64,000 bases of DNA, taken from assembly GCF_003003215.1 (NCBI RefSeq), contig NZ_PVUF01000001.1, positions 372,001 to 436,000 of the forward strand. The letters run 5' to 3'. Shown piece by piece: positions 6,289 through 10,167 of the stretch. The notes under the pieces are model-generated. The model was given only the letters and a program-made list of their open reading frames with translations, did no database searches and was not told the origin of the DNA. The position numbers were made by a program, and so were the translations under genes. Source of the DNA: Tritonibacter scottomollicae (GTDB lineage: Bacteria; Pseudomonadota; Alphaproteobacteria; Rhodobacterales; Rhodobacteraceae). Every line of letters starts with the position of its first letter. The stretch's first letter is position 1.

Positions 6289-7548
6289 ATGGCCGATGAT
6301 CTCATCAACAGCTTCATGAACGGACCGGACGAGAATGGCCGTTTTGGCATCTTTGGCGGCCGCTTCGTCAGCGAAACGCTGATGCCGCTGATCCTGTCGC
6401 TCGAAGAGGAATATGAACGCGCCAAGGTGGACCCGGACTTCTGGGCCGAGATGGACGATCTGTGGAAGCACTACGTTGGCCGCCCCAGCCCGTTGTACCA
6501 TGCGGAGCGTCTGACCGAGCATCTGGGCGGCGCCAAGGTCTACCTGAAGCGGGACGAGCTCAATCACACCGGCGCACACAAGGTGAACAATGTGCTGGGT
6601 CAGATCCTGCTGGCACGGCGCATGGGCAAGACACGCATCATTGCCGAGACCGGTGCCGGCCAGCACGGTGTGGCCACAGCCACCGTCTGCGCCAAGTTTG
6701 GTCTGAAATGCGTGGTCTACATGGGTGCGCATGACGTGCGTCGTCAGGCGCCCAACGTGTTCCGTATGCGTCTGCTGGGCGCAGAGGTGATCCCGGTGAC
6801 CTCTGGTCGCGGCACGCTGAAGGACGCGATGAACGACGCCCTGCGCGACTGGGTGACCAATGTGCGCGACACGTTCTACTGCATCGGCACGGTGGCGGGT
6901 CCGCACCCCTATCCCGCCATGGTGCGTGACTTCCAGTCGGTGATCGGCAAGGAGGTGCGCTGGCAGCTGGCGGAGCAGGAAGGCGAAGGCCGTCTGCCCG
7001 ACACGTTGATCGCGGCGATCGGTGGCGGCTCCAACGCCATGGGCCTGTTCCACCCGTTCCTAGATGATCCAAGCGTCAACATTATCGGCGTCGAGGCCGG
7101 CGGCAAGGGCGTGGACGAGAAGATGGAGCATTGCGCCTCTCTCACCGGCGGTCGTCCCGGCGTGCTGCATGGCAACCGCACCTACTTGCTGCAGGATGAC
7201 GACGGGCAGATCCTCGAAGGTTTCTCGATCTCTGCGGGTCTCGATTATCCGGGCATCGGGCCGGAGCATTCCTGGCTGCATGAAACCGGGCGCGCAAAAT
7301 ATGTCTCCATCACCGACAAGGAGGCGCTGGAGGCGTTCCAGCTCTCCTGCGCGATGGAGGGGATCATTCCGGCGCTGGAACCGAGCCACGCGCTGGCCCA
7401 TGTGACGAAGATCGCCCCCGAGCTGCCCCGCGACCATATCATCGTGATGAACATGTGCGGGCGCGGTGACAAGGACATCTTTACCGTGGCGCGTCACCTC
7501 GGATTTGACATGTCCGACACCGAGGAAGGCCGCGATCTGGAGGAGTGA
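6289..7548 (+). CDS. trpB: Tryptophan synthase beta chain
   Basis: A 419-residue PLP enzyme that condenses indole with serine to give tryptophan. The PLP lysine is K98 in HTGAHKVNN. The phosphate-binding loop is GGGSNAMG, and [10 protein letters not shown] and CGRGDKD near the C terminus are diagnostic. The length is typical of TrpB1. Its partner TrpA is encoded at 18057-18860 on the opposite strand rather than immediately downstream as in many bacteria. The gene ends in a strong intrinsic terminator and has a 277-bp upstream region, so it appears to be transcribed alone. Confidence 0.98.
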
Positions 7549-7582: not shown

Positions 7583-7617
7583 AAAAAGGCGCGCCCCGTG
7601 GGGTGTGCCTTTTTTTA
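7583..7617 (+). terminator. Rho-independent terminator of trpB
   Basis: AAAAAGGCGCGCCCC pairs with GGGGTGTGCCTTTTT (a few G-T pairs) and runs straight into a T tract, 35 bases after the trpB stop. Confidence 0.9.
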
Positions 7618-7737: not shown

Positions 7738-10167
7738 ATGCAGGATACGACTTTGCAGGCCGTGCAGGAGCTGCAGCTTGCCGCTGATCATTTGTGGACG
7801 ATCATCGCCGCGGCACTGGTGCTGATGATGCAACTGGGGTTTCTGCTCGTCGAGGCCGGGATGTCGCGGTCGAAAAACAGCATTAACGTCGCGCAGAAGA
7901 ACATCACCGATTTTCTGGTCTCCGTCAGCGCATTCTATGTGCTTGGCTTTGGTCTGATGTTCGGCACGTCGCGGGCGGGTTGGTTTGGTACTGATACCTT
8001 CGCGATCAAGCAGGCGGACGACTGGCATTATACCTTTTTCGTCTTTCAGGCGGTATTCGCAGGTACGGCCGCGACAATCATGTCCGGGGCCGTCGCCGAG
8101 CGGATGCGCTATGGGGTCTATGTTGCCGCGGCGCTGTTCATCGGGTTGATTGTTTACCCGATCAGCGGCCACTGGGCTTGGGGCAACCTGTTGAACGGTG
8201 AGAACCCGGCCTATCTGGCGGACAAGGGCTTCATCGATTTTGCCGGCTCCACCGTGGTGCATTCGGTTGGCGCCTGGGTGGCGCTGGCTGGCATTGTGGT
8301 ATTGGGTGCGCGGATCGGCAAGTTCAATGCGGACGGCAAACCCAACCTGCTGCACGGTCACAGCTATGTGTTGGCCACGGGGGGCGCGATCATCCTCTGG
8401 GTGGGGTGGATCGGGTTCAATGGGGGCTCCACCACCGCAGCCAGTCCAGACATTGCCCACATTGTGCTGAACACGTTGCTTGCGGCTTGTTTCGGCGGCG
8501 TGATGGGCATTTTGACAGGGCGGGTCATTGATCCCGTGAATATTCCGCACCGTCCGATCAATGGCAGCCTTGCAGGTTTGGTTGCGATCACTGCCGGGTG
8601 CGATGCTGTCACTGTGCAGGGGGCTGTGATCATCGGGGCAGGGGCTGGCATGCTGGTCGTGGCCTCGGAATGGGTGATGGAAAACATTCTGAAGCTGGAC
8701 GATGTCGTGGGCGCAGTGTCTGTGCATGGCATTTGTGGTGCGTATGGGACGATTATTTTTGTCTTTTTTGCGCTGCCGGGCAAGCTTGCGCTCGATACGC
8801 CCGGCGCGCAGGCGCTGGTGCAATTGGAGGGCGTGGCGATCATCTTTGCTTGGGCTTTTGGTCTGAGCCTCGTGTTCTTCAAGGTGATTGATCTTTTGGC
8901 CGGAATTCGTGTGCCCGAAGAAGATGAGATCATCGGCCTGAACAGCACCGAACATGGCGCCACTCTGGGTACTGGGGCTCTGCAGAAGCAGCTGGAAGCG
9001 ATGACGAGGAACGGAGTCGATCTGACGCGCCGATTTGATGAATCCGCTGGGGATGAGGCGGCGGAGCTGGCCGGCCTGTTCAATCCCTTCATCGATCAGA
9101 TACACGCTCTGGTGTGTGATATCCGCGACAACGCCCGCAAGATGAAACAGTCCTCGTCCGGGCTGGAAACGCTGTCCAGTTCCTTTCGAGAGGGCGCGGC
9201 GCGGACGGGGGAGTTAACCGGAAGTGTCAGCGAAAGCTCAACCGAAGTGGTGGGGCAGGCGCGCAGTAACCGTGCGCTTGCAGAGAAAATTCTGGCGGAG
9301 ATGACGACGATATCGACCAGCGCTGAGGGTATGTCGGGCGAGGTAACCGCCGTTTCGGACGCGATTTCGGATATGATGACGTCGATCAGTCACATTTCAC
9401 AAAGCGCCAGCTCGACCAGTGGTGTGACCCATGAGGCCAACCAGCTGTCGGGCGACGCGGTCGAAACCATGCAAGCGTTGTCCAAAGCCTCCGAGGAAAT
9501 CGAGGCTGTGGTCGGGCTTATTCAGAAGATAACCATGCAAACCAATATGTTGGCAATCAATGCGGCGATCGAGGCCTCGCGGGCTGGGGATGCGGGCAAA
9601 GGATTTGCCATCGTCGCGGCACAGGTGCGCAGCCTGGCGGCAGAAACCGATATGGCTGCCGAGGAAATCCGAAGCCGGATCTCCAATATGCGATTGCAGT
9701 CGGATGATGCCTCTTCTGTCATTTCCGGGATCAAGGAATTGATGAAGGCCATTCATGCCTCGGTCGAGGGCATCACCACCGAAGTCGACTCGCAGCGTCG
9801 TGTCGCGGGGCAGGTTTCCGAACGCATGGCCAACGCCTCCAGCAAGGCCAAGTCGGTTGCGCGATCCATCGAGGATGTGCGGCAACAGGCCGACAGTGTG
9901 CGCAGCAACGCAACACGCAATGAGGAGCGCCTGTCGCAGAACGCACACACCGCCACGATCCTGCAGAATGACGCCCGACAAAGCGCGGAGCAATCCGGCG
10001 TGCTGGCGCAGGAAGCCAATGCCATCAATACGTTGTCTGACAAGCTGAGCGCCTCTGTGGCGCAGTTCGATCTCGACAGCGCCGAAGACAGGCAGGATGC
10101 AGAGTGGTCGGCAGAAGAGCTGCGTCGATCCCCTGCCGCGCCTCCGGGGCACACCGAAGCGTCATAG
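7738..10167 (+). CDS. Ammonium transporter fused to HAMP-like and MCP chemotaxis signalling domains
   Basis: An 809-residue single frame. Residues 1-400 are a complete Amt/MEP/Rh ammonium channel: QLGFLLVEAGMSRSKN, TAATIMSGAVAERM, the twin pore histidines H175 (VVHSVGAW) and H330 (VSVHGICG), and the typical Amt C-terminal tail (IGLNSTEHG). Residues about 404-460 resemble HAMP (DLTRRFDE ... GDEAAELAGLFNPFIDQI). Residues about 480-770 form a long methyl-accepting-type coiled coil, whose hairpin tip (about 590-640: KITMQTNMLAINAAIEASRAG, then GKGFAIVAAQVRSLA) matches the CheW/CheA-binding consensus. No NWETF-type tether is present at the C terminus. Inference: an ammonium sensor for chemotaxis, with the channel as ligand domain. 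Retained twin histidines suggest transport may still occur. No che, glnK or amtB genes are adjacent. Confidence 0.95.
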   Translation: MQDTTLQAVQELQLAADHLWTIIAAALVLMMQLGFLLVEAGMSRSKNSINVAQKNITDFLVSVSAFYVLGFGLMFGTSRAGWFGTDTFAIKQADDWHYTFFVFQAVFAGTAATIMSGAVAERMRYGVYVAAALFIGLIVYPISGHWAWGNLLNGENPAYLADKGFIDFAGSTVVHSVGAWVALAGIVVLGARIGKFNADGKPNLLHGHSYVLATGGAIILWVGWIGFNGGSTTAASPDIAHIVLNTLLAACFGGVMGILTGRVIDPVNIPHRPINGSLAGLVAITAGCDAVTVQGAVIIGAGAGMLVVASEWVMENILKLDDVVGAVSVHGICGAYGTIIFVFFALPGKLALDTPGAQALVQLEGVAIIFAWAFGLSLVFFKVIDLLAGIRVPEEDEIIGLNSTEHGATLGTGALQKQLEAMTRNGVDLTRRFDESAGDEAAELAGLFNPFIDQIHALVCDIRDNARKMKQSSSGLETLSSSFREGAARTGELTGSVSESSTEVVGQARSNRALAEKILAEMTTISTSAEGMSGEVTAVSDAISDMMTSISHISQSASSTSGVTHEANQLSGDAVETMQALSKASEEIEAVVGLIQKITMQTNMLAINAAIEASRAGDAGKGFAIVAAQVRSLAAETDMAAEEIRSRISNMRLQSDDASSVISGIKELMKAIHASVEGITTEVDSQRRVAGQVSERMANASSKAKSVARSIEDVRQQADSVRSNATRNEERLSQNAHTATILQNDARQSAEQSGVLAQEANAINTLSDKLSASVAQFDLDSAEDRQDAEWSAEELRRSPAAPPGHTEAS

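Follow-up and report, generated by a model that had tools for sequence, protein, structure and literature searches.

A sensor-type Amt domain joined to a chemoreceptor-like signaling hairpin in Tritonibacter scottomollicae

Introduction

Can a membrane domain of the ammonium transporter (Amt) family serve as the input of a bacterial chemoreceptor? The question is raised by a gene of Tritonibacter scottomollicae (Rhodobacteraceae; assembly GCF_003003215.1) located in a stretch of 64,000 nucleotides of contig NZ_PVUF01000001.1 (positions 372,001 to 436,000 of the forward strand), which constitutes the whole of the DNA analyzed and is referred to here as the window. Positions 7738 to 10167 of its + strand hold a single open frame, from ATG to TAG, in which an Amt domain is followed by a HAMP-like linker and by a hairpin typical of methyl-accepting chemotaxis proteins (MCPs). 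We regard the product as a receptor in the membrane that senses external ammonium and, through a chemoreceptor output, feeds the kinase CheA, a reading to which we assign a probability of about two in three. Judged from its sequence, it is best read as a non-methylated or atypically adapting ammonium receptor, that is, as a new output placed on a known sensor family. The parts of the gene are as follows.

7738 to 10167, + strand: Amt-HAMP-MCP fusion gene, 809 amino acids (open frame, Pfam, full-length homologues)
7795 to 8964, + strand: Amt (ammonium transporter-like) sensor domain, residues 20-409 (PF00909; bit scores against 6EU6 and AmtB)
8971 to 9105, + strand: degenerate HAMP linker, residues ~412-456, directly after the Amt C-tail motif EHG (PF00672 below threshold; model)
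9106 to 10062, + strand: MCP-type antiparallel hairpin, residues ~457-775 (model, Foldseek, gap-free alignment of 6 homologues)
9505 to 9687, + strand: hairpin tip, residues 590-650 (within the region of PF00015, 555-721; low ratio of nonsynonymous to synonymous substitution, dN/dS)

The fusion gene and its domains

The original prediction, made from the letters of the window, had described an uninterrupted frame of 809 codons in which a complete Amt with its twin histidines is joined through a HAMP-like segment to a full MCP signaling hairpin. The frame is indeed open throughout, with neither frameshift nor stop between the domains, and the same fusion is free of stops in Epibacterium sp. Ofav1-8, Tritonibacter mobilis A3R06 and NBRC101030, Phaeobacter inhibens P88, Roseobacter sp. 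SK209-2-6, Roseibium marinum and Pelagibius marinus. Its recurrence in these assemblies excludes a chance read-through or an artefact of joining, and the Amt-HAMP-MCP fusion is thus confirmed as real and conserved. The domain search that had been proposed places Ammonium_transp (PF00909) at residues 20-409 (E 7.7e-98, 328.3 bits against a cut-off of 23.2), which makes the Amt complete, and MCPsignal (PF00015) at residues 555-721 (E 6.7e-28, 98.1 bits against a cut-off of 34.6). Both histidines, H175 and H330, are kept and align with the pair H171/H326 of the ammonium sensor Ks-Amt5. HAMP falls below its Pfam cut-off in the window protein, so that the cautious wording of the prediction was apt.

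Comparisons with Epibacterium sp. and T. mobilis gave dN/dS values of about 0.05 in the Amt domain, 0.03-0.04 in the tip (residues 581-650) and 0.11-0.18 in the arms of the hairpin, with dS in these parts near saturation (1.3-2.2). Against Roseobacter sp. SK209-2-6 the comparison was saturated over most of the gene, the tip giving 0.10 and the C-terminal arm 0.24. Overall, the ratios against the two close relatives point to purifying selection on both halves of the protein.

The Amt half and its predicted ammonium site

The membrane domain, which by homology has 11 helices, finds its best match among solved structures in 6EU6, that of Ks-Amt5 from Candidatus Kuenenia stuttgartiensis (317 bits), followed by 8QJ3 and 8QPF (275 bits) and, at a distance, by AmtB (about 145 bits). 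As described in PMC5764959, Ks-Amt5 is an ammonium-sensing Amt-histidine kinase that binds NH4+ and controls the fused kinase; it holds two ammonium ions among residues Q24, E31, N47, D50, T51, T109 and T112, binds NH4+ without efficient translocation though all transport motifs are kept, and has a pore said to be closed by three bulky residues, F27, Y30 and F34. Both proteins have a sensor-type Amt with an output joined to its C-terminal tail; in Ks-Amt5 a histidine kinase is joined without HAMP, where the window protein has HAMP and an MCP hairpin.

The window protein keeps five of the seven site residues unchanged (Q32, E39, N55, D58 and T113, for Q24, E31, N47, D50 and T109). The remaining two are a conservative change, T112 to S116, and a different residue, F59 in place of T51. 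The codons of three site residues are as follows.

7831 to 7833, + strand: codon of Q32 (Q24 of Ks-Amt5, an ammonium-site residue conserved in fused Amts; alignment, PMC5764959)
7909 to 7911, + strand: codon of D58 (D50 of Ks-Amt5, the ammonium-site acid; alignment, PMC5764959)
8074 to 8076, + strand: codon of T113 (T109 of Ks-Amt5, an ammonium-site residue; alignment, PMC5764959)

The protein of 8QJ3 carries the same F and S, and the three entries 8QJ3, 8QJ4 and 8QPF, titled 'Ammonium transporter', are identical to the window protein at all seven positions (Q/E/N/D/F/T/S). We take these entries to be Sd-Amt1, a sensor-type Amt-HAMP-GGDEF receptor with a diguanylate cyclase output and HAMP-type coupling; the difference would then lie in the output, enzymatic there and a hairpin of the CheA-coupling type here.

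The rows compared were the best matches to the window protein, and the stand-alone Amts among them are therefore not a random sample. Within this set the discriminating positions were Q32, D58 and T113; E39 and N55 also occur in stand-alone Amts (57/57 and 56/57). The glutamine was present in all 19 readable Amt-MCP rows, and the aspartate and the threonine in all 20 (the window gene supplying two of these 20 rows). Each was found in 24/24 Amt-histidine kinase fusions, and in 16/16, 15/16 and 15/16 Amt-GGDEF fusions, respectively. The stand-alone Amts had Q in 12, D in 13 and T in 11 of 57 rows, the others showing mostly A, L or S. Taken at sequence level, the Amt half is predicted to be of the ligand-binding sensor type. 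It shares with the AmtB/GlnK channel the family fold, the twin histidines, the Phe gate and a similar C-tail motif, but it matches AmtB at a lower score than Ks-Amt5 and differs from most stand-alone Amts in the residues of the sensor site. The further suggestion that a GlnK-sensitive conformational change had been re-used for signaling finds no support here; what the sequence shows is a C-tail motif retained, up to 'EHG', ahead of HAMP.

A quick tree of 76 Amt domains, which took 12 of the 24 kinase rows and 12 of 45 plain stand-alone rows, placed the fused rows in one branch of 57 (SH-aLRT, the Shimodaira-Hasegawa-like approximate likelihood ratio test, 98), along with 5 lone rows of the Q/D type. 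Three copies were left out of the tree: L025, which has an in-frame stop; L020, a duplicate of the window's own gene; and L024, a near copy of the T. mobilis gene L004. Thirteen of the 18 Amt-MCPs formed one branch (SH-aLRT 95), and 17 of 18 lay in a branch (SH-aLRT 94) that also holds two GGDEF fusions and one kinase fusion, the copy of genome G924 remaining outside. To explain how the MCP label is distributed, the tree needs four changes or more, although its starred branches force just one. Consequently, output swaps or more than one origin of the MCP fusion are possible.

The same domain invites a second explanation, a transceptor in which the Amt still moves ammonium and the hairpin reports uptake instead of binding alone. 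All transport motifs are retained (the twin histidines, the Phe gate F107/F227, the filter residues W148/S231, and D167), and of the three pore-closing residues of Ks-Amt5 only F27 has a match (F35), while V38 and M42 are not bulky aromatics; the equivalent of F35 is moreover found in 57/57 stand-alone Amts and is not diagnostic. Set against this are the inefficient translocation of Ks-Amt5, which keeps every transport motif, and the presence in the host genome of a separate amt gene (L001, G000:C8) with a PII (glnK-like) gene immediately upstream to serve uptake. We consider the transceptor possible, though we do not favor it. A third PF00909 match in the host genome (L003, 28 bits) was set aside as chance, its frames reading as a different membrane protein. 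Tandem pairs of stand-alone Amts with the sensor-type Q/D/T occur in two genera of the family (L058 and L059).

The output half

The fold of the output half was examined with an AlphaFold2 model of residues 400-790 built from 6 sequences (mean predicted local distance difference test score, pLDDT, 82.5; predicted template modeling score, pTM, 0.41), which was used for fold only; a model of the whole protein from 6 sequences had a mean pLDDT of 50.3 and was discarded. The HAMP part appears as helix-connector-helix (pLDDT ~45-79). All 15 Foldseek matches at E <= 0.001 were chemoreceptors, and the hairpin reading depends on them, since the DSSP string of the model runs as one helix through the tip. 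Hairpin fold and tip resemble those of Tsr (1QU7, 3ZX6) and of a Thermotoga MCP (2CH7), and the tip, residues 590-650, is presumably the region through which MCPs contact CheA and CheW.

In 6 homologues, which share 31-77% identity with the window protein, HAMP and hairpin align over 391 columns free of internal gaps. The spacing between the DE motif of HAMP and the asparagine of the tip is exactly 169 residues in 10 of 19 Amt-MCPs, six of these ten belonging to the close clade of the window gene. In one homologue (L154) the HAMP at the equivalent place exceeds the cut-off, with 29.8 bits. Three other Amt-MCPs (L053, L054 and L055, the same genes as L147, L148 and L149) have extra HAMP-type segments ahead of the hairpin, and their passing HAMP models are positioned further along (HAMP_2); L053 and L054 also have a few additional residues at the hairpin tip.

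Distribution of the fusion

Eighteen further Amt-MCP genes were recovered from Rhodobacterales, from other Alphaproteobacteria and from one proteobacterium of another class, so that the survey of Rhodobacterales suggested by the original prediction found the architecture there and beyond. Among the named relatives found to carry the gene, Epibacterium sp. Ofav1-8 and Tritonibacter mobilis are the nearest. Of the 18 genomes of the genus, three hold it intact (the window's own, G005 and G016); an in-frame stop interrupts it in G002, and the G007 copy is broken. Samples at higher ranks gave at least 7 carriers among 394 genomes of the family (own, G380, G168, G065, G293, G097 and G034), at least 5 among 385 of the class (own, G697, G532, G443 and G618) and at least 3 among 398 of the phylum (own, G1117 and G924, the last from outside the class). 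Note that these counts are lower bounds, as they cover best matches with few candidates scored per genome and leave some fusions unclassified; Amt fusions outside the counts include G016:C4, G026, G443:C2, G545 and G908. Amt and MCPsignal both exceeded their Pfam cut-offs in L138, L139, L141, L143, L144, L146, L147, L148, L150, L151, L152, L154, L155, L157 and L158, and also in L149, scanned from part of the gene, and in L153, a partial gene. The G034 copy ends at the contig end beyond the tip, and the G097 copy, whose start coincides with a contig edge, has a short C-terminal arm.

Three candidates were rejected or left uncounted: G872, whose tail reads as kinase-like and has no MCP match; G520, in which a contig edge cuts the gene ahead of the output; and L145, an Amt fusion of a gammaproteobacterial metagenome-assembled genome, likewise without an MCP match.

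A tblastn search of plasmids returned three records covering at least 80% of the protein, two from T. mobilis (80%) and one from P. inhibens P88 (67%), the last annotated just as 'ammonium transporter'. The P. inhibens copy (L005) resides on a 215-kb conjugative plasmid, close to transposase and recombinase genes. Besides trpB, the T. mobilis plasmid p2 record (L004, NZ_CP110385.1, 1.19 Mb) contains a gene resembling that of ribosomal protein S1, and this record may therefore be part of a chromosome.

The damaged copies in G002 and G007, the patchy distribution and the mobile setting of the P. inhibens copy are what would be expected of a dispensable, decaying gene acquired through mobile elements and without selected function. 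We find this highly improbable. The ratios of both halves are low against two relatives (the third pair, with Roseobacter sp. SK209-2-6, being mostly saturated), and the Q/D/T site residues are invariant across the readable Amt-MCP rows.

Possible coupling to CheA and departures from ordinary chemoreceptors

The original prediction had made its case depend on CheA and CheW, and both are encoded in the host genome (4.68 Mb in 72 contigs), which has one CheA and one separate CheW. Their cluster includes CheY-, CheR- and CheB/CheD-like genes, named by reading. CheA was found in 19/19 genomes tested, 15 of which carry an Amt-MCP; of the other four, two have broken copies, one is a contig-edge case and one has an Amt-kinase. 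In the family sample CheA occurs in 187/394 genomes and in 7/7 carriers (P = 0.005, not corrected for kinship), and omission of the window's own genome and G380 leaves 5 carriers (P = 0.023, again uncorrected). In G034 a same-strand run encodes an MCP, a triple CheW, CheB, a HEAT protein, CheR, a receiver, CheA, a receiver, a 239-amino acid frame without family and, at the contig end, the Amt-MCP. This cluster is a second system, another CheA being located elsewhere in that genome. In Pelagibius marinus an MCP gene immediately precedes the Amt-MCP, and in G618 one lies ~2.9 kb away.

The ordinary MCPs of the host provide the reference for the output half. The genome has 15 MCP matches, from which the Amt-MCP itself and a broken fragment were subtracted to give a co-resident set of 13, each with an intact tip. 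That fragment (L021, G000:C4:356607-356849) is a partial MCP signaling domain with an in-frame TGA. The N-terminal arm, counted between the Phe/Asn position of HAMP and the asparagine at the tip, has 160 residues in the window protein; in pairwise alignments it has 125 in twelve of the co-resident MCPs and 129 in one, and a motif-based measure gave 125 in all 7 measured, including the one of 129. The length comparison covers this arm only. At least one strict methylation motif (1-4 each) is present in 13/13 co-resident MCPs and at least one in 3/3 MCP genes beside other Amt-MCPs; 18/19 Amt-MCPs have none, the remaining one, L110, having a single motif, and L027 lacking the C-terminal arm. A looser motif occurs 0-2 times per Amt-MCP against 2-7 times per co-resident MCP. 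Shuffled versions of the window hairpin yield a strict motif in 17% of cases, which makes its absence unremarkable and its presence in ordinary MCPs the selected state. The ends of four co-resident MCPs (WTDF, WADF, YEDF and, in the fourth, WGNF) resemble a docking tail for CheR and CheB; the Amt-MCP of the window has no such tail.

Several observations weigh against a receptor that feeds CheA. The HAMP match (PF00672, residues 415-456) reaches 15.8 bits against a cut-off of 25, the window hairpin holds no strict and one relaxed methylation motif, and the N-terminal arm of the 13 other full MCPs is 31-35 residues shorter than that of the Amt-MCP. The tip reads MQTNMLAIN, where the near-uniform co-resident tips have mostly FQTNLLALN. 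The gene is patchy, with no orthologue listed for 13 of the 18 genomes of the genus, and the CheA match of carrier G1117 is weak, with 30.8 bits. The other stretches read around Amt-MCPs had no match to CheA, CheW, CheB, CheR or a further MCP; receiver-type matches turned up twice, in the stretches of G1117 and G520, both in genes of other kinds. Our literature search found no experiment on an Amt-MCP. Finally, receptors of different lengths are reported to segregate into independent arrays (PMC6628036); with one CheA in the genome and arms of unequal length, coupling to that CheA is uncertain.

The description of the output as a full signaling hairpin stands for the fold and the tip and fails for the methylation region. 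Having no consensus methylation sites, this half is classed here as a chemoreceptor-like output and not as a methyl-accepting protein; together with its differing arm, this sets it apart from the ordinary MCPs of the main array. Its departures from MCPs in general are the Amt-type membrane input, the lack of a strict methylation motif and an N-terminal arm longer than that of its co-residents. The missing sites and the differing length lead us to expect that it signals apart from the main receptors and lacks the customary adaptation by CheR and CheB. Given the length-sorted arrays reported in PMC6628036 and the missing methylation motifs, a separate and poorly adapting signaling unit is more likely than membership of the main array.

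Two further explanations bear on this output. The hairpin could belong to an alternative chemosensory pathway whose CheA-linked output is not flagellar taxis but, for example, attachment to surfaces or control of genes; the neighborhood in G034, a second system with its own CheA, CheB, CheR and triple CheW, and the unusual arm length would suit it, but the window genome has just one CheA, clustered with CheY-, CheW-, CheR- and CheB-like genes, and we consider this idea less likely than not. Alternatively, the rod could be a structural or localizing tail that clusters the Amt or places it at a pole, with no control of a kinase. Its odd length and its lack of strict methylation motifs would agree with such a role, which nevertheless seems unlikely: against two relatives no part of the rod is more constrained than its tip, HAMP and hairpin are free of gaps across the 6 homologues, and CheA is present in 15/15 carrier genomes tested. 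The ammonium receptor with an output to CheA is our preferred reading.

Gene neighborhood

Two features lie upstream of the fusion.

6289 to 7548, + strand: trpB-like gene (PALP), separate from the fusion (neighborhood reading)
7583 to 7616, + strand: GC-rich inverted repeat followed by a T run, a probable terminator after trpB (read by eye)

A terminator scan of the region did not include this inverted repeat among its reports. The genes downstream, an ABM-family monooxygenase and a peptidyl-tRNA hydrolase, run in the opposite direction and, with a probable terminator upstream, the fusion looks like a single-gene unit. A trpB-like neighbor is also found at L023, L024, L004, L138 and L139.

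A proposed mechanism and its significance

The mechanism that we propose begins with an Amt domain, presumably a trimer like other Amts, which would bind ammonium at the site described for Ks-Amt5. Binding would cause a change that reaches the C-terminal tail and then the HAMP helices, whose shift would displace the coiled-coil hairpin, so that the tip, by way of CheW, could set CheA activity. In this way the cell would find its direction in ammonium gradients, or tune some other behavior under CheA control. Ammonium binding by this protein, control of the kinase and taxis are all things that we infer.

Amt proteins are trimers and MCPs are dimers, a 3-to-2 mismatch shared with Amt kinases and cyclases. 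Two Amt trimers supply six chains, the number in one trimer of MCP dimers, and pairing of rods between neighboring trimers would therefore solve the mismatch. On this view the Amt-MCPs would be a chemoreceptor class of their own: a transporter fold that is trimeric would drive a kinase-control rod built on dimers, without adaptation by methylation, the rods would pair between neighboring trimers in a separate array templated by the membrane, and the absolute level of ammonium would be read instead of its change over time. We regard this picture, including the pairing of rods, as doubtful.

The literature search, in which subscription journals were mostly outside the search, found no paper on an Amt-MCP, the term 'Amt-MCP' matching just AMT-mcpGFP, and the papers listed name no bacterial chemoreceptor with an Amt input. 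The sensor Amt family is also known with cyclase outputs. Other fusions were seen in the course of the survey: Amt with adenylate/guanylate cyclase in the family of the window's host, at L057 (778-2877, - strand; by Pfam) and L060 (853-2886, - strand; by motif only), and Amt with PAS and histidine kinase at L061 (1405-4200, + strand). Kinase output is described for this family in PMC5764959, and within the literature searched the MCP rod appears to be a new output.

The Amt module would thus drive a kinase, a diguanylate cyclase, a nucleotide cyclase and an MCP rod, four outputs at the least, and the coupling of a trimeric sensor to dimeric outputs becomes testable by comparing Amt fusions. 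The absence of methylation motifs raises the question of whether classical adaptation is indispensable to a chemoreceptor. Ammonium is a main nitrogen currency in the sea, and a dedicated ammonium receptor, if true, would explain how bacteria may steer towards algae or other sources of ammonium.

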